Below, piece by piece: positions 6,886 through 37,089 of a stretch of DNA of 38,461 nucleotides; position 1 is the first letter of the stretch, and each line of letters begins with the position of its first letter. The notes under the pieces were generated by a model, which made no database searches, had not been told where the DNA came from, and saw nothing but the letters and a program-made list of their open reading frames with translations. A program made the position numbers and the translations under genes. The stretch spans positions 1 to 38,461 of IMG/VR virus record IMGVR_UViG_3300021511_000019, one strand, 5' to 3'. Source of the DNA: a virus.

Positions 6886-7101
6886 TTATAGTATTGTTCC
6901 TGTGCCTGTCACTGGTCCGCCTCCTGCTGGTGCTGTCAATGGTGGTGGTCCTCCTGCTGGATTTACAACGCCATTTATTGTAAACTCTGAAACTATTGCA
7001 CCCGCTATTGCTTGCCATACTGCCTCTGTATCTGATTTGTCACCAACTCCATCAATTGCTGCCTTTATTGCTGTTCCTAGTCTATCCCCATTTAAAGCCA
7101 T
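6886..7101 (-). CDS. Small baseplate-module protein with Pro/Gly-rich tail
   Basis: 71 residues. The N-terminal half (MALNGDRLGTAIKAAIDGVG) is a short helical domain often seen next to spike and gpW genes of contractile-tail phages. The C-terminal half is Pro, Gly, Ala and Thr (GGPPPLTAPAGGGPVTGTG) and must be flexible. Function is not established; the place between the spike and gpW genes suggests a minor baseplate part or a spike-tip accessory. Base composition is richer in GC than its neighbours because of the Pro/Gly codons. Confidence 0.6.
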   Translation of the reverse strand: MALNGDRLGTAIKAAIDGVGDKSDTEAVWQAIAGAIVSEFTINGVVNPAGGPPPLTAPAGGGPVTGTGTIL

Positions 7102-8703: not shown

Positions 8704-9074
8704 ACGTAAATACTCGCGTCACCTGCTGAGGTCTGATAGACAACTATTAAACCTTCTCCTAAATCATCCCGCTCACCTTCGTCAGTATCACTATTTAAAT
8801 TGATCGCTGTCAAGGTTCCTTGTGGCAATCTCTCATCTTTAAAACGTTCTAATAGGTCAACCCCCGTTAATAAAGGTAGTCCCATAACAATGTTTTCGTT
8901 ATCATCTGTTTTTATGCTCAATACCCAACGTGCCATGCGGGTATTATATCGAACCCAAAAAATATAAGTTGTATCTTCAAGGTCAATTCTTTCTTCAAAA
9001 TTTGCATCTAAATTATCAAAAGGCAATGTAAATAATACTTGTTCTGTTTGTGTTAGTGTAACTTCTGCAACCAT
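8700..9074 (-). CDS. Baseplate plug-like protein (DUF6983 type)
   Basis: 124 residues. A compact beta protein with ARWVLSIKTDDNENIVMGLP and TGVDLLERFKDERLPQG, as in the phage baseplate plug family. It lies between the Dit-like and hub genes, where this family is normally found, and overlaps the hub start by 4 bp (ATGA). Family knowledge: it closes the tube at the baseplate. The assignment is by pattern and place. Confidence 0.65.
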   Translation of the reverse strand: MVAEVTLTQTEQVLFTLPFDNLDANFEERIDLEDTTYIFWVRYNTRMARWVLSIKTDDNENIVMGLPLLTGVDLLERFKDERLPQGTLTAINLNSDTDEGERDDLGEGLIVVYQTSAGDASIYV

Positions 9075-9692: not shown

Positions 9693-11437
9693 TATTCAGC
9701 CTCCGCGCCTGTTGTCGCATATGATGCATTATTTAATTGATTATCAAAATATTTAGAAATTGCATTTTCTGTGTAACTTTGCATTTCATCTGGACTAGTA
9801 CCATTAGGAACATTATTAAAAGTCATTGGTGCTGTAATGTTTACACTTGAACTCGTAGAGTTAGTTGTAACATTTGATCGCATTGGCGTAGTCATTGGTG
9901 TACCCATTCCTTTTGCAATATCCAACATTCGCCCACTAATACCACCCTGTAGAAATTTCTTAGCCCAAGAAGGTAACATGTTTTCAATTTTTGTTGAAAA
10001 ATCTGCAATAAAATTCCCTACACTTTGCCAAAGCCCTTTTACAAACTGAACAAAGTTAAATAAAACATTACTCCAAAACTTTCCAATTCTTTCTGCATTC
10101 ATTCCAAATAACTTTAGAATATTTTCACCAAGTTCTTTAAAACCTTCAAGCAAAAGATTCATGTCTTGATCTACAATGCCAGCAAAAACACCTGCAACTA
10201 TTTTCCCAAGACTGCCAAGAATATCCATTAAATCTTTGACAACTTTATTTGTTTCTGCAAATTTCCCTATTAGCGATTTGCCGCCAGTAAAATAAGTGTA
10301 AATATCTTCAATAATTAAACCAAGAGCAACAAAAGCTGCACCAACTAAAATAGGGAATGCTAGAGCTTTTATTTGTGCTATAGCTGCCGCAATGCCTGTC
10401 ATTGTAAAGGCTGACGCTACAGCGCTTAAAATAGCTGGTAATGCAATAAGCATTGAACCTAAAGCCCCCAACATTTGCATACCTACTAAAGCCCCAACAG
10501 CAATTAAAACACCTTTCAAGACTCTTTCAAATCCACCAAATGCATCAACTACTTTTTTTACTGTGTTAAAAACAACTTTTGTAATTTTCCAAAAATATTT
10601 TAATGCTAAAATAAACTTTTTTATATAATCCAAAATTTTAAGTTTAAGCATTTTTTTATTAACATTATACCACTCAAGAAACATGCCAACAATTTTTTTA
10701 GCTGTTGGTAAAAGCTCGTTGCCAATTTCAATTGCTAAGTTTGTAATATTATCTTGAACATTAGATATCATGCCTTGTAAAGATTTTGATTGTTTTTCCA
10801 TTAAACCGGCATAAAGACCAATACCTGTGCCCATACTTCGCATAGCTTCATCAAAAGACTTAAAAGTAATTTTGCCAGCAGAAATCATTTTAAAAAGCTG
10901 CTCTTTATTAACGTTATATTTTTTTGCTAGTTCATCAAGGATAGGCATACCAGCGTCCATAAGCATGTTTAATGCTTCAAGATCTGCCTTTCCTTTTGCG
11001 CGAACTTTTGAAAAAGCTTTTATTACTGTGGGCAATTTGTCTTTACCTAAACCAGCGGCGATATTTCCAAGATATTCCATTTTTTTAATAACTTCATCAG
11101 ATGCGACGCCCACAGCCAACAATTGCTTCGAGGCTCCAATCAATCCAGTTAATTGAAAAGGAGTTTTTGCAGCAAACTTTGTAATATCCTGTAATAATGC
11201 TTTTGCTTTTTCACCACTTTTTAGCATAGTTTCAAAAGCTATTTGCACTTGCTCAATATCGCCCGCCTGTTTAAGCATGTACCCTATGCCGGTAGAAAAA
11301 ACAGCGCCAACAACTGCTGCCCCTTTTGCAACAACAGAAAGTGTGCTTGATAAATTATTTAAAGCATTGTCAAATTGCTTTACTTCTTTTAAATCAGTTT
11401 TTACACCAATTCTAACAAACAAATCACGTAATTTCAT
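9692..11437 (-). CDS. Tail tape measure protein
   Basis: 581 residues. Residues about 60-250 match the tape measure domain: VQIAFETMLKSGEKAKALL, TKFAAKTPFQLTGLI and SKVRAKGKADLEALNMLMDA. Residues about 300-375 contain several hydrophobic stretches (GVLIAVGALVGMQMLGALG) that could cross the host membrane after ejection. At the usual about 1.5 angstrom per residue the length predicts a short tail of roughly 85-90 nm. It starts 11 bp after the stop of the frameshifted tail chaperone, the classical arrangement. The SD AGAGG lies across that stop codon. Confidence 0.85.
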   Translation of the reverse strand: MKLRDLFVRIGVKTDLKEVKQFDNALNNLSSTLSVVAKGAAVVGAVFSTGIGYMLKQAGDIEQVQIAFETMLKSGEKAKALLQDITKFAAKTPFQLTGLIGASKQLLAVGVASDEVIKKMEYLGNIAAGLGKDKLPTVIKAFSKVRAKGKADLEALNMLMDAGMPILDELAKKYNVNKEQLFKMISAGKITFKSFDEAMRSMGTGIGLYAGLMEKQSKSLQGMISNVQDNITNLAIEIGNELLPTAKKIVGMFLEWYNVNKKMLKLKILDYIKKFILALKYFWKITKVVFNTVKKVVDAFGGFERVLKGVLIAVGALVGMQMLGALGSMLIALPAILSAVASAFTMTGIAAAIAQIKALAFPILVGAAFVALGLIIEDIYTYFTGGKSLIGKFAETNKVVKDLMDILGSLGKIVAGVFAGIVDQDMNLLLEGFKELGENILKLFGMNAERIGKFWSNVLFNFVQFVKGLWQSVGNFIADFSTKIENMLPSWAKKFLQGGISGRMLDIAKGMGTPMTTPMRSNVTTNSTSSSVNITAPMTFNNVPNGTSPDEMQSYTENAISKYFDNQLNNASYATTGAEAE

Positions 11438-11448
11438 TTGCGCCTCTT

Positions 11449-12065
11449 ATTCGCTCTGTTTTTTTCGGCTTCTCTCTTTTCCCATTCGCTATAATCTTGT
11501 TTAATCTGTAAAAACTCTTTCGCATCCTCTAAATCACACAAGGACCAATGACGGTCAATTTCTTCAAGACCTGATGCAAGTCTAGCGTCAATGACCGTCC
11601 ACACGTCCAATTCAATATTTATTTTTCCGGGATCAAATCTTTGTTTTTGAGGATACTTAATAGATCTGATCCCCCTGCGAAAAAATCATCAAAATAGTAC
11701 ATTATGGCTTTTGCCAATACTTTGTACATAAAAAACAATTTCATCTTGAAACATTTTTCAAAATTACTTTCTTGCCCTAAATAACCACAACCTTTATGAA
11801 AACACTGAGAAAACATTACATCAATAATGTAATCTAAATCGTTATCGTTTAAATCTTCACAAAATTTAGTAATCATTGGTTCCAAATCAGCATCTTCAAT
11901 TTTGGTTGCTTCTCCTAATCCGGCGGCAAGTGGTTTTCCAATTACTTTTACTAGTCTTACCAAGACTTTGTTTAGTTTCCTTACACTAATGTGGCGGAAC
12001 TCAAACTCTTGACTATCAATTGTTATTGTTTCCACTGCTGCTGCTTCTACTCTCTTTTCATTCAT
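11449..12065 (-). CDS. Tail assembly chaperone, -1 frameshift fusion
   Basis: The first 129 residues are those of the unshifted form. After slipping on T TTT TTC (11685-11679) the -1 frame stays open for 76 codons to TAA 11451-11449, giving 205 residues. The added part contains ELDVWTVIDARLASGLEEID and HWSLCDLEDAKEFL, a Trp-containing helical pattern common in chaperone extensions. The -1 frame has a TGA just upstream of the site, so it can only be entered by the shift. Without the shift the 170 bp before the tape measure gene would be empty in this otherwise packed operon. Confidence 0.8.
11619..12065 (-). CDS. Tail assembly chaperone, unshifted form
   Basis: 148 residues ending at TAA 11619-11621. 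A helical protein with an N-terminal beta part (TITIDSQEFEFRHISVRKLN) and a Cys-containing middle. It has the place of lambda gpG or P2 gpE between tube and tape measure. Family knowledge: a minority of ribosomes shift -1 near the end to make a longer form, and both forms bind the tape measure during tail assembly. The zero-frame end after the slippery site is 19 residues long. See the separate entry for the fusion. Confidence 0.75.
   Translation of the reverse strand: MNEKRVEAAAVETITIDSQEFEFRHISVRKLNKVLVRLVKVIGKPLAAGLGEATKIEDADLEPMITKFCEDLNDNDLDYIIDVMFSQCFHKGCGYLGQESNFEKCFKMKLFFMYKVLAKAIMYYFDDFFAGGSDLLSILKNKDLIPEK
11679..11685 (-). other. Programmed -1 ribosomal slippery site (U UUU UUC)
   Basis: In the chaperone frame the codons are GAT TTT TTC, so the heptamer is X XXY YYZ with X=U, Y=U and Z=C. 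P2 uses the close relative U UUU UUG. A second weaker candidate, G GAA AAA, lies just before the zero-frame stop. Confidence 0.75.
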
Positions 12066-21226: not shown

Positions 21227-21556
21227 CTATTTATTTTCTTTTTCTAAAATTTCCTTGATTTCCTTAATCAATCCTTTCTTAGTTGTAGGAACTTTTTTTA
21301 CTTGTAAATTTTTAGCCATTTCTCTTAATTCTTTTATACCTAAATCATCTAAATAAGCAAAGTCAGCACTGTTTATGCTTTCTTCTTTTTTTATCTCTTC
21401 TGGTTCTTCGACTTTTTTAGGCATTTTGACTAAATCTTCTCTTTTAATTCCTTTTGGTTCTTCTTTTTTTGGTAAATCCTTACATCTTTTCATATGCATT
21501 TTTAAAACAGGCTCAGAAAAAACCCTGTTACAATATGGACATTTATTTGTAATCAT
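21227..21556 (-). CDS. Zinc-finger plus HeH/Rho-N-like protein after the coat gene
   Basis: 109 residues from ATG 21556. A longer in-frame start would run into the coat gene and lacks an SD, while AGAGG precedes this ATG. Residues 6-25 form a C2HC finger (C6, C9, H21, C25; CPYCNRVFSEPVLKMHMKRC). The middle is a Lys/Glu/Pro-rich linker. Residues about 68-105 (LDDLGIKELREMAKNLQVKK, then TKKGLIKEIKEIL) match the HeH/SAP/Rho-N type helix-extended loop-helix fold that often closes proteins encoded after phage coat genes. It could bind nucleic acid or a virion protein. Confidence 0.6.
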   Translation of the reverse strand: MITNKCPYCNRVFSEPVLKMHMKRCKDLPKKEEPKGIKREDLVKMPKKVEEPEEIKKEESINSADFAYLDDLGIKELREMAKNLQVKKVPTTKKGLIKEIKEILEKENK

Positions 21557-23514: not shown

Positions 23515-24435
23515 TTAATCTTTAAAATAACCTATTGTGTCACATCTGCAATTAGGTCGCATGGGTGGAAAGTTAACACCCGGCTGAGCGTCCTTTAATA
23601 AAAAGATCTTGCCATTTAATTCGTCGTAATCATCACTCGATCTTTCATCATCTATTGCAACATATTCATATTTTTTTAAGCCAGCCTTTTCAAATCCAAT
23701 CTTTTTGGCTTGCTGTACTGTAAAAGTTGTTTCTGTCCTAATTAACCTATAAGTATTATAATAATTACTATCCATTCTTTTCTGCAAAGCTTTTGTCATT
23801 GTTGAATAACTATCACCCTGTACAATACCCTGCATTACTGTCCTTTGTGTTGCTTTTGCTAAAAAATCTCTATTATTCCAAATTGTTGCAGAATAATTTT
23901 GTCCGTTATAAAAAGGATAGTCTAGTATTGCTTTAACTGCGTTATCTGACAAAGAGCTAAATGTTGTTGTAATCTTTGTTTGTGTCTGTGCTGTATCAAA
24001 CGCAAATTTGGCTGCATCATCTGCTGTATCTATTATGTAGTCAGTCAGCTTCATTTGTTCATATTGTCCTAGTTGACTAACCTTTGTTTCAAGATCCATG
24101 TATAAAGCTTCAAGCCGTTGTATCTTGGATCTCGATTGCATTGCATTCATTTTTCTAACAAGTTCCGGGTTATTCGTTAATTTTATTTGTTTTTTTAATG
24201 CTGTTATCCTTTCATGAAAATCACTTAATTCAGTTTTATTTAAAAGTTTTTTAGCATTTTTTAGGGTTAACCCCTCTTGTGTCGCGTATTCCTGATAAAA
24301 TGAAGCAATGTCTTTTTTTACTTCAGACATTACACTATTGTATTTTCTTTTTACACTACGAGCCAATTTATTTTCTACAGCATCAACCTGTTTTTCTAAA
24401 ATTTTATTGCGGTTTAGCCAATAAGCTCGACTCAT
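23515..24435 (-). CDS. MuF-like minor head protein (SPP1 gp7 type)
   Basis: 306 residues. The N-terminal two thirds are long helices. The C-terminal block (RLIRTETTFTVQQAKKIGFE, KKYEYVAIDDERSSDDYDEL, FPPMRPNCRCDTIGYF) is the phage Mu F/SPP1 gp7 head morphogenesis domain, complete with the RTE and CRC motifs. Family knowledge: it binds the portal inside the head and travels with DNA in some phages. No toxin domain is attached. It follows the portal gene after about 100 bp that are filled by a small overlapping gene. Confidence 0.8.
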   Translation of the reverse strand: MSRAYWLNRNKILEKQVDAVENKLARSVKRKYNSVMSEVKKDIASFYQEYATQEGLTLKNAKKLLNKTELSDFHERITALKKQIKLTNNPELVRKMNAMQSRSKIQRLEALYMDLETKVSQLGQYEQMKLTDYIIDTADDAAKFAFDTAQTQTKITTTFSSLSDNAVKAILDYPFYNGQNYSATIWNNRDFLAKATQRTVMQGIVQGDSYSTMTKALQKRMDSNYYNTYRLIRTETTFTVQQAKKIGFEKAGLKKYEYVAIDDERSSDDYDELNGKIFLLKDAQPGVNFPPMRPNCRCDTIGYFKD

Positions 24436-24565
24436 ATTTTTTAAACTCCAAACATTGCATATTTAAACACATGCGTCCATACTGATCTTGAAAAAGTTCC
24501 CATCCACAATATGAACACCTTTTTATTTTCCATTTATTTTTCTTCTTCCTCTTCTCTATTTTCAT
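24404..24565 (-). CDS. 53-residue Com-like zinc ribbon overlapping portal and MuF genes
   Basis: This small gene starts at ATG 24565 inside the portal C-terminus and ends at TAA 24406-24404 inside the MuF N-terminus, in a different frame from both. A perfect GGAGG lies 9 bp before its ATG. The basic N-terminus is followed by RCSYCGWELFQDQYGRMCLN: C17 and C20, then C33 and C38, a short zinc ribbon of the shape seen in Mu Com and similar small phage proteins. Com proteins bind RNA or DNA; here the role is unknown. The gap between portal stop and MuF start lies entirely inside this gene. Confidence 0.7.
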   Translation of the reverse strand: MKIEKRKKKNKWKIKRCSYCGWELFQDQYGRMCLNMQCLEFKKYESSLLAKPQ

Positions 24566-25991
24566 TGTCTTTCGCCTCCGTTAGATTATAACTATCTAAT
24601 TCGGCGTTTTGTTCTTCTATCGCTTTTTCAAACTCTGCGTCAGGATCATCTATAAAAGATGTCTGAGCAAAAGAGGTTGTCTTTGACACTCCTGCCTCAA
24701 TATGCTTCTTAAGCGTGTCAGCTTCTTCAACAGTGTTTACAGGAACGTTCCTAGTAAATGTATATTTCATTTTTAGATAATCTAAAGATATTCCGTTTAA
24801 ATCCCAATAATTTGAAATTATTTCCCAACGATTTCTTAAAAATGATGTGTATTTTCGTTCAAACACTGAGCATTTACTTTCCAGCAACCTTAGTTTATAT
24901 GATATTGCCATTTTTGTTAAATTTCCATATAAGTCTTTATCTGTAAAATCAACACTGCCAGAAAAACGAATTATTAATTTTTCCAGCCTGTCCATTACTT
25001 CGCGAACACCTTCAACATTGACATCTTTTATTAACCACTCAATTTTCCCGTCACTATCAACTTGCAAAGCTCCAGTTTGTTTTAGTCTTGTAAAAACCTC
25101 TTCATCTAATACAGCGCCATATATTAATAAGTAAGCAAGCCTTGTTTGCTCCATTTCGCTAGATAAATCAGAAATAGCCCGATCAAAAGCATCAATATAG
25201 CTTTCTGCCAGTTCTGTATCTCCAATCTCTTCTTTGTTGTTAATTGCTTTGTTTATAGGTACTTTACCCATCATGTGAGGAAGCTCATAGACTCCCTTAA
25301 CTTCATATGGGTAATAAGTTCCGTTTACATCTCTATAGTAATAAACATTTGTAGAATCATAATACTCTACTGTTGTAACTTCTTTATTTAAATCTTGGTG
25401 AAATTCCTTATTATATCTAATTGCTTCAACAAGATCTTGGTTTTTATTATAAATCGGTATGACTTCCCAAGGCCATAGTTGAAGAACTTTGGCAACGGCT
25501 TTACCTTGATGAACTCCATTATACCATAATTCATATGAAACGCCTGTAATTGCCGCCATCTTCCAATGTTCTGGGTCAAGATCTTCAACGTTGTTCATTG
25601 TCATTAAATCACTTTTCAAATTATTCAACTGGTCTACATTTCCTGCACCTTCTAAAAATTCAACAGTAATAGGAATTCCACACCCATACGCCGCTTTAAC
25701 ATCAGGCACCTCACGTTCAAATCCAGAAATCAATTTATTATTAACCTTTGCTGTTGATTCTGCTGGCCTAGTACAAATAGGTTTTTTGCCTTTATATCTA
25801 AAATAACGTGTCTTTAGATTTTCAGCTTTTGTTTTATGATCTGAAATCAATTTCTTTATAGTCTCAGCTTTTTTGTCTGGCAAATCTGACTTGCTGACAC
25901 TATCGTCAATTGCCCCTGTTGCATTAGGATTGAGCTTGTCTTGATCTGGGGTATTCTGTATTACTGTGTTTTCCGCGGTTTTAGTAGCCAT
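24534..25991 (-). CDS. Portal protein (SPP1 gp6-like)
   Basis: 485 residues from ATG 25991. Upstream in-frame ATGs at 26021 and 26006 exist, but the second belongs to ATGGAG, whose GGAG is the likely SD of the chosen start. The segments YGCGIPITVEF, HWKMAAITGVSYELWYNGVH, YYDSTNVYYYRDVNGTYYPY, SSEMEQTRLAYLLIYGAVLD and SGSVDFTDKDLYGNLTKMAI follow SPP1-type portals. Family knowledge: twelve copies form the DNA channel at one capsid vertex. The C-terminus is an acidic tail (NREEEEEK). A promoter is predicted just upstream. Confidence 0.8.
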   Translation of the reverse strand: MATKTAENTVIQNTPDQDKLNPNATGAIDDSVSKSDLPDKKAETIKKLISDHKTKAENLKTRYFRYKGKKPICTRPAESTAKVNNKLISGFEREVPDVKAAYGCGIPITVEFLEGAGNVDQLNNLKSDLMTMNNVEDLDPEHWKMAAITGVSYELWYNGVHQGKAVAKVLQLWPWEVIPIYNKNQDLVEAIRYNKEFHQDLNKEVTTVEYYDSTNVYYYRDVNGTYYPYEVKGVYELPHMMGKVPINKAINNKEEIGDTELAESYIDAFDRAISDLSSEMEQTRLAYLLIYGAVLDEEVFTRLKQTGALQVDSDGKIEWLIKDVNVEGVREVMDRLEKLIIRFSGSVDFTDKDLYGNLTKMAISYKLRLLESKCSVFERKYTSFLRNRWEIISNYWDLNGISLDYLKMKYTFTRNVPVNTVEEADTLKKHIEAGVSKTTSFAQTSFIDDPDAEFEKAIEEQNAELDSYNLTEAKDNENREEEEEK

Positions 25992-26024
25992 TTTTTTTAT
26001 CTCCATCCAAAAACCATTCACTAT

Positions 26025-32451: not shown

Positions 32452-33213
32452 TTATTCAACTGCGCATTCTGCATAAAAATCATGTTCATCACTTGTTAAG
32501 ATTTTATTAACTCCCATAGAATAAAGAGTGTTTTTCTTTATATTGATATAAAACCTTGCTTTACTCAAAGATCTTTCTATGACTTCAACTTTAATTGCCT
32601 GATAAGCTTCTGACCCTTCAATAACATTAGGGTTTACAAATCTAATTGTTGATTTAAAAACCTTAATTTCACTGCTTTTATCTACATAAGATGGTGACGA
32701 ATAAAAATCTATTTGTAAATCTTCACTTTCGTTGTCTGTTTTAAATAAAATGTAGTTCTCGTTTCTATCCAAAACACATTCAGTATCTATAAATTCAAAG
32801 GTTTTTTCTGGATATGGCTCCATATTAGTTTCTACAAATAAATACCATGGAGGATTAAAGTTAGTTTCATGTATTTCGTCTAATCCTTCGCTGTCATTGT
32901 TATTTGTGTCGGGAATTTCATCGCCCTCGTTGTCCACGGTATTAACTCTGTCTGTGTCTCCAACATTTTCAAGATCTCCTGAGATATCCGCATCGCGATA
33001 TAGTTCCGCATCCAAATCATTTGTGATTTCTGCTTCTGCTTCTGGCCTCTCTGTATCATTGTCAGACCACTCATCATCTTGTAAAACTTCTTGCTTTTCA
33101 AAATCCGCATCTGTAAAAACCTCCTTTTCAAATTGAATGTCATTTAAATAAACTTTTTTTTCTTCTGCACAACTTATTAAGAATACAATTAAAATTAAAG
33201 ATAAATACCTCAT
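32452..33213 (-). CDS. Acidic outer-membrane-type lipoprotein
   Basis: 253 residues from ATG 33213; a GTG-started longer frame would put residues before the signal peptide and lacks an SD. MRYLSLILIVFLISC is a lipoprotein signal with lipobox LISC (Cys15); the next residue is Ala, not Asp, so outer-membrane sorting is expected in a Gram-negative host. Residues about 16-125 are very rich in Asp, Glu and Asn, a flexible acidic spacer. From about 126 a folded beta domain follows (PPWYLFVETNMEPYPEKTF, ITRFVN-like strands). It is bracketed by hairpins, as accessory (moron) genes often are. A surface change on lysogens or superinfection block is possible. Confidence 0.7.
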   Translation of the reverse strand: MRYLSLILIVFLISCAEEKKVYLNDIQFEKEVFTDADFEKQEVLQDDEWSDNDTERPEAEAEITNDLDAELYRDADISGDLENVGDTDRVNTVDNEGDEIPDTNNNDSEGLDEIHETNFNPPWYLFVETNMEPYPEKTFEFIDTECVLDRNENYILFKTDNESEDLQIDFYSSPSYVDKSSEIKVFKSTIRFVNPNVIEGSEAYQAIKVEVIERSLSKARFYINIKKNTLYSMGVNKILTSDEHDFYAECAVE

Positions 33214-33224
33214 TTTCCTCTCCC

Positions 33225-33257
33225 TAAAGAAAAGGAGGACAGCAAAAGCCACCCTCC
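33225..33257 (-). terminator. Possible weak terminator before the lipoprotein gene
   Basis: On the minus strand GGAGG (257-253) pairs with CCTCC (238-234) across a 14-nt loop, followed by TTTTCTTTA. It lies after the stop of the 33268 gene and overlaps the lipoprotein leader. It could also mask or expose the lipoprotein SD. Confidence 0.35.
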
Positions 33258-36810: not shown

Positions 36811-37089
36811 TTATTGCTCTTTCCATGGTTTTTTGCGAGTTAATAACCAGTGACCTCCTCGTAAAAAAGGCAATAATTTATGCCACCATTTTTCTTTATG
36901 TGGAATCCAGACAGCATATCTGAACTCTAATGTTTTATTCATTGTTTCTCTAGTACAATGAGGACAAACCCATGGTGTAACATTATCTTTTTCAAAGATA
37001 GCATTACAATATTTGCAAACATAAACTTTTTGTTGTGTACGTGATGCCTTTTCTTCATTTCTAGGTGCTATATGTTTATATTTTGTCAT
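36811..37089 (-). CDS. Zinc-ribbon protein
   Basis: 92 residues. YVCKYCNAIF (C25, C28) and WVCPHCTRET (C42, C45) form a rubredoxin-like zinc ribbon. The C-terminus is Trp/Lys rich (KWWHKLLPFLRGGHWLLTRK) and amphipathic. SD is GGAG. Function unknown. Confidence 0.55.
   Translation of the reverse strand: MTKYKHIAPRNEEKASRTQQKVYVCKYCNAIFEKDNVTPWVCPHCTRETMNKTLEFRYAVWIPHKEKWWHKLLPFLRGGHWLLTRKKPWKEQ

Follow-up and report, generated by a model that had tools for sequence, protein, structure and literature searches.

A putative four-cysteine small protein encoded across the portal/MuF junction of a viral head operon

Introduction

Com of bacteriophage Mu is a small phage protein with which the present locus can be compared. 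As described for Com in PMC6483171, the protein consists of 62 residues, carries an N-terminal CCCC finger and acts, by RNA binding, as a translational activator of the downstream gene; its proposed target is a hairpin upstream of the mom start, and its four N-terminal cysteines presumably bind zinc. A second point of comparison is the portal-MuF gene pair. According to a survey in PMC5576092, muf genes are found immediately downstream of portal genes, at position +1 in >60%. In Mu itself, the portal and gp30 genes overlap directly.

We analyzed a single viral record of 38,461 bases with a G+C content of 34.8% (hereafter the window), in which a gap between the portal and MuF genes is covered by a short frame with four cysteines (hereafter the zinc frame). 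A sequence-only reading of this DNA had proposed that the zinc frame encodes a zinc ribbon of the kind seen in Mu Com. Here we describe the frame, compare it with the junctions of related phages and weigh the explanations for its presence.

Results

The portal/MuF junction and the zinc frame

The minus strand carries, in order, the genes for the terminase large subunit, a portal protein of the SPP1 gp6 type and a MuF protein of the SPP1 gp7 type, and later the major capsid gene. The features of the junction are summarized in Table 1.

Table 1. Features at the portal/MuF junction of the window
Feature	Position	Strand	Remarks
Portal protein, SPP1 gp6-like	24534..26021	-	PF05133 6.5e-75; phrog_64 3.8e-102; TIGR01538 1.6e-56; start codon uncertain
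GGAGG ribosome-binding site of the zinc frame	24575..24579	-	9-nt spacer before ATG; inside portal coding sequence
Zinc frame, 53-codon ORF, putative four-cysteine zinc-binding small protein	24404..24565	-	Cx2C-x12-Cx4C
Gap between portal stop and MuF start, 98 nt	24436..24533	-	Covered by the zinc frame
30-codon portal-frame ORF, rival reading of the gap	24441..24533	-	ATG directly after portal stop (TAA-ATG)
Predicted RNA hairpin inside the gap	24475..24516	-	Dot-bracket read by hand; not exceptional
MuF ribosome site GGAG	24446-24449	-	10 nt before MuF ATG
MuF minor head protein, SPP1 gp7-like	23515..24435	-	PF04233 4e-21; phrog_115 5.3e-81; TIGR01641 3.6e-27

The translation and the coordinates agreed with the earlier description of a 53-codon frame that begins in the portal gene, ends in the MuF gene and is out of frame with both, the overlap being 32 nt on either side. 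The translation of 24404-24565 on the minus strand is MKIEKRKKKNKWKIKRCSYCGWELFQDQYGRMCLNMQCLEFKKYESSLLAKPQ, ending at a stop codon. The CxxC...Cx4C cysteines of that description were recovered, and all four fall within the 32 whole codons of the 98-nt gap. The GGAGG reported 9 bp ahead of the ATG was likewise present. The frame had also been said to fill the sole gap between the two genes; it does cover all 98 nt, but the portal frame is open across the gap too, as an ORF of 30 codons that ends 5 nt before the MuF ATG. To call the frame hidden was an overstatement, since it overlaps each neighbor by just 32 nt. A current gene caller would probably call a frame with overlaps of this length.

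The late genes of the window are tightly packed: in a hand-picked list of 28 late genes, 19 of the 27 gaps were ≤14 nt, which argues for a real gene in the portal/MuF gap. However, the same list contains other gaps of 62, 97 and 113 nt, and an unfilled gap of 98 nt would therefore be nothing strange.

Chance expectation of the motif, the ribosome-binding site and bridging frames

We searched 500 dinucleotide shuffles of the window, each with ~175 ORFs of ≥40 aa, for the pattern CxxC-x8-20-Cx2-4C. The pattern occurred 243 times, or ~0.5 times per shuffled window, so that by itself it is not rare, and GGAGG preceded 244 ORFs of ≥40 aa across the 500 shuffles. When a G was required behind the first knuckle, the pattern was obtained once, and the pattern together with GGAGG was never obtained. 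In the real window, two ORFs of ≥40 aa carry the pattern (24404-24565 and 36811-37089), and GGAGG is present only at the former. Large genes of the related loci contained 785 nested out-of-frame ORFs, one of which had the cysteine pattern.

The distinct portal/MuF junctions of relatives (128; see below) were examined for out-of-frame ORFs of ≥40 aa, with ATG, GTG or TTG accepted as start codons. Such an ORF bridges the junction in 12 of the 128, and a bridging frame is thus unremarkable per se. None of the 12 is preceded by GGAGG, and none carries even a loose four-cysteine pattern.

These frequencies bear on an alternative that we consider possible yet rather doubtful, namely that the frame is fortuitous, in which case the 98-nt spacer is not translated, is open by chance and contains a chance zinc-like motif. 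On this account, GGAGG simply belongs to the Thr-Glu-Ala codons of the portal gene, and the lysines at the start of the frame result from reading the glutamate-rich portal tail with a shift of one base. The alternative draws on the frequency of the motif alone and of bridging frames. It also draws on the openness of out-of-frame DNA, as 25/261 and 5/261 of the out-of-frame 32-codon stretches in the genes of this phage were open in the two alternative frames and the portal frame is open across the gap as well. It is opposed by the joint occurrence of the motif with G after the knuckle (once) or with the ribosome site (never) in 500 shuffles, and by the 12 bridging frames of relatives, which have neither GGAGG nor the loose four-cysteine pattern. 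These last observations, together with the intact ATG frame and the GGAGG at a distance of 9 nt, favor a real gene.

Codon usage of the zinc frame

Codon scores were calculated with 28 late ORFs, picked by hand, as the reference. In whole-codon composition, the zinc frame had a log-odds of -0.338 per codon, whereas the lowest of the 154 gene windows was at -0.241. Of 170 out-of-frame ORFs, 54% had a higher score than the zinc frame. This low score may stem in part from the atypical amino acids of a very small basic finger and from the constraint that the overlaps place on its codons. For the 32 codons not shared with a neighbor, the synonymous score was 0.14, which corresponds to the 56th percentile of 259 gene windows and was reached by 12% of 259 out-of-frame windows. 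The contrast in G+C between codon positions 3 and 1 was weak; it was as flat in 4% of the gene windows and in 49% of the out-of-frame windows. The codon evidence is thus mixed: synonymous choice fits the late genes of the phage and speaks for a real gene and against a fortuitous frame, whereas the full composition does not fit and, with the flat G+C contrast, points the other way.

Across the gap, the synonymous score of the zinc frame was the best of the three frames; that of the portal frame was -0.113, and the third frame has two stops. The reading in which the gap is instead used by the 30-codon portal-frame ORF, as a short hydrophobic peptide or a mere portal-MuF coupler, is suggested by its position, one base past the portal stop and just ahead of the MuF ATG. 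Its synonymous score is below that of the zinc frame, and ~30 open codons are unsurprising given the open out-of-frame stretches counted above; we regard this reading as extremely improbable. A frameshift fusion of portal and zinc frame was also considered and rejected on inspection by eye: slippage of +1 or -2 would be required, and no classical slippery site was seen at the portal stop.

Homologues and the closest relatives

At E≤10, the 53-residue protein had no homologue among 50,697 phage and 72,556 plasmid records. None was obtained either in a pattern search of viral contigs or in 14 related records, the last searched without a positive control; all of these searches have little power with such a short protein. 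The bacterial genome contigs searched yielded no portal relatives. The absence of homologues in these searches counts against a real gene and is what a fortuitous frame would lead one to expect.

The closest examined relative with a complete junction is locus L200, whose portal and MuF proteins are 48% and 33% identical to those of the window. Its portal gene ends at 2488 and its MuF gene starts at 2492; these are 3 nt apart, which leaves no room for a gene between them. An out-of-frame ATG frame of 48 codons (2418-2564) bridges this junction, with one cysteine and no GGAGG. It shares a lysine-rich start with the zinc frame, because in both cases a glutamate-rich portal tail is read in the same shifted frame. 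That L200 is among the 12 bridged junctions weighs on the side of a fortuitous frame. A further relative, L179 (portal 44% identical), could be read only to a point within the portal gene, where the record ends.

Survey of portal/MuF junctions

We collected 210 loci: portal relatives (best 80 of 184), MuF relatives (best 80 of 574), 12 further MuF relatives (one already counted), 2 capsid relatives, 21 terminase relatives, 2 portal relatives nearer the window (one already counted) and 15 named phage records. Both genes were present in 187 loci, six of which were set aside (L060, L061, L063, L065, L070 and L173). The remaining 181 loci represent 120 distinct junctions (120 or 128, depending on the string compared). 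With the most upstream possible MuF start taken in each case, the two genes overlap or touch in 90 of the 120, and the gap is 1-30 nt in 15, 31-90 nt in 3 and >90 nt in 12.

The junctions of related phages were searched for the cysteine pattern, as the sequence-only reading had suggested. A loose four-cysteine scan of the 128 distinct junctions, in which the frame of the window was recovered as the positive control, returned a single frame (L174). This frame starts with TTG, lies between portal and MuF genes that are 1.4 kb apart, is not one of the 12 bridging frames and shows no likeness to the zinc frame by eye; it is probably due to chance. No such frame was flagged in separate scans of the best 80 of 184 portal loci and the best 80 of 574 MuF loci. 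On the basis of these surveys, we rejected a zinc finger conserved at portal/MuF junctions. Loss of the cysteines in relatives, which had been named in advance as evidence against the proposal, was thus observed both in L200 and in the wider survey. It counts against a conserved role in head assembly, not against a gene in this phage. The zinc frame was not conserved in any relative examined, and those readable at the junction had portal identities of at most 48%.

Small genes do occur at this junction. Enterococcus phage phiFL2A has an annotated small gene, gp37 (58 aa, phrog_8955), between portal and MuF, and L167 carries the same frame; small ORFs, as ORFs only, are present at the junction in L045, L135, L155, L168 and L181. 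The junction seems to take up small genes now and then, and the cases of phiFL2A, L045, L155 and L181 lend support to a real gene in the window. In the titles and abstract openings searched, a zinc finger between portal and MuF was not described. In Clostridioides phage CD1801 (L005:1-2000), the portal gene is split; its C-terminal piece (phrog_64) is annotated as hypothetical, with ~0.8 kb between the pieces.

Predicted fold and profile matches

AlphaFold2, run on the single sequence, gave strands at residues 23-27 and 30-33 and a helix at 36-48 (mean pLDDT 69, pTM 0.35). The pLDDT was 81 over residues 21-30, and the hairpin and helix are placed behind the first knuckle. This modeled order of hairpin then helix may be that of a treble-clef finger, within the limits of a single-sequence model with a mean pLDDT of 69. 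The only Pfam signals of the zinc frame were likewise treble-clef fingers, with E values of 0.058 and 0.061, below the cut-off. Model and weak matches both argue for a real gene, and the predicted product may reasonably be guessed to form a C4 or treble-clef finger. On the other side, no PDB match reached E≤0.001 with Foldseek; the top one, at E 0.52, was to one chain of a complex of RNA polymerase and topoisomerase I. A sequence search of solved structures gave one match (E 5.9), to an unrelated-looking construct.

RNA structure and the translation of MuF

The RNA of the 98-nt gap had a z of -2.37; 22 of 1000 shuffles and 104 of 558 windows of the late region were as stable. We therefore rejected an RNA element in the gap, since its stability, although mildly above that of shuffles, is usual for this part of the window. 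A short hairpin is predicted to contain the MuF start codon, and the MuF GGAG is predicted to be largely unpaired (0.80-0.93). The final two bases of the GGAGG of the zinc frame are predicted to be paired, which counts against a real gene. Counted from the A of the MuF start codon, the stop codon of the zinc frame begins 29 nt downstream. The predicted pairing at the MuF start allows coupling via ribosomes that cross the zinc frame; Com-like control does not follow from it.

By analogy with Com and mom, the product might turn on MuF translation by binding a hairpin in the RNA near the MuF start codon. The layouts are alike in outline, com overlapping the start of mom and the zinc frame that of MuF, and the predicted hairpin at the MuF start codon would suit such a regulator. 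However, the MuF GGAG is not hidden by the predicted structure, L200 has a MuF gene without such a frame, the profile of Com was not matched, the second knuckle is different and no Mom was found (see the last section). We judge this regulator improbable. The more specific idea that the finger in the gap is a cis-placed translational switch for MuF, the Com/mom arrangement having been reinvented independently in a head operon, we judge very improbable.

Other features of the window and its relatives

In the window (21227-21556, minus strand), in L200 (5397-5765) and in L177 (1027-1203), the major capsid gene is directly followed by a gene for a CxxC...H...C zinc-finger protein. Its Cys, Cys, His and Cys are invariant in the window and in these two relatives, the ones read there (L178 not included), and it is better conserved than the zinc frame. 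The form in the window has weak matches to zf-C2HC_2 (E 0.00012) and Rho_N (E 0.028), both below the cut-off. The gene before the tape measure gene (11619-12065, minus strand), which by its position we take to encode the tail assembly chaperone, is overlapped at its end by an 83-codon stop-to-stop frame (11434-11685, minus strand) close to TTTTTTC and GGGGGA runs; this overlap is probably a programmed -1 frameshift. A 71-codon frame (6886-7101, minus strand) occupies most of a 230-nt gap that separates two tail genes in the hand-picked list, and an ORF at 32452-33252 (minus strand) is lipoprotein-like, with a long acidic low-complexity stretch by eye. PADLOC returned nothing.

In L179, the relative with the highest terminase identity (54%), a small RING-like four-cysteine ORF (1527-1700; zf-C3HC4_3, E 0.00033, below the cut-off) lies just upstream of the terminase ORF and overlaps it. 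L188 has a 50-aa Cx2C...Cx2C ORF (8895-9047), the second behind a 410-aa gene that follows the terminase in the portal position; no MuF match was found behind this ORF.

Discussion

We consider it rather probable that the zinc frame is a real, lineage-specific accessory gene of the head operon that encodes a small zinc-binding protein. Translation would start independently at the GGAGG in the portal tail. In the 53-residue product, a very basic N-terminal tail would be followed by a small finger, C4 or treble-clef-like, in which the four cysteines hold a single zinc ion. Ribosomes finishing the zinc frame would open the predicted short hairpin that contains the MuF start codon, and MuF translation would thereby be kept coupled to portal translation. 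The protein would most likely bind nucleic acid or a partner protein, as dispensable cargo and not as a conserved assembly factor. The frame, its ribosome site, the cysteine spacing, the overlaps and the absence of the frame in the relatives examined are observations; translation, zinc binding, coupling and function are what we infer from them.

If the frame is translated, phage head operons have one more small zinc-finger gene, and the portal/MuF junction is a site at which small cargo genes come and go. The present evidence opens no new mechanism. It does hold a lesson of method, as a motif combined with a ribosome site can convince even where relatives show no conservation and chance often produces bridging frames.

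Comparison with known systems

The zinc ribbon had been likened to that of Mu Com, and we rejected this kinship on the basis of profile, cysteine spacing and neighbors, none of which supports it. PF10122 (Zn_ribbon_Com) had no matches in the window at E≤10 and was absent among the Pfam matches of the 53-residue protein at E≤10; in the control for this search, it matched in 10 of 14 control genomes and exceeded the cut-off in one. BLASTP aligned 18 residues of the zinc frame with Mu Com (E 0.14 in a single comparison). The N-terminal cysteines of Com are arranged as Cx2C-x16-Cx2C and those of the zinc frame as Cx2C-x12-Cx4C, so that the second knuckle differs. The com gene lies at the right end of Mu, far from the head genes, and shares 80 nt with mom, whereas the zinc frame adjoins MuF, and a search with Mu Mom at E≤1, run without a positive control, found no Mom relative in the window. 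What the two share is that both encode small phage proteins with four cysteines near the N-terminus and that each gene overlaps the start of the next.

In regards to the treble-clef fingers, the weak matches to zf-Tbcl_FmdE (PF23475) and zf-tcix (PF14952) cover residues 8-34 and 8-44 of the zinc frame, respectively. Both score 13.3 bits, which is too weak for membership given the respective cut-offs of 23.2 and 31.2. The gp37 of phiFL2A is a small gene at the same junction, but its product has one cysteine, no zinc motif and no likeness to the zinc frame by eye. The SPP1-type portal-MuF module has the same flanking genes in the same order as the window; its portal and MuF genes overlap or lie ≤30 nt apart in 105 of the 120 distinct junctions of relatives, whereas in the window they are separated by the 98 nt that the zinc frame covers.
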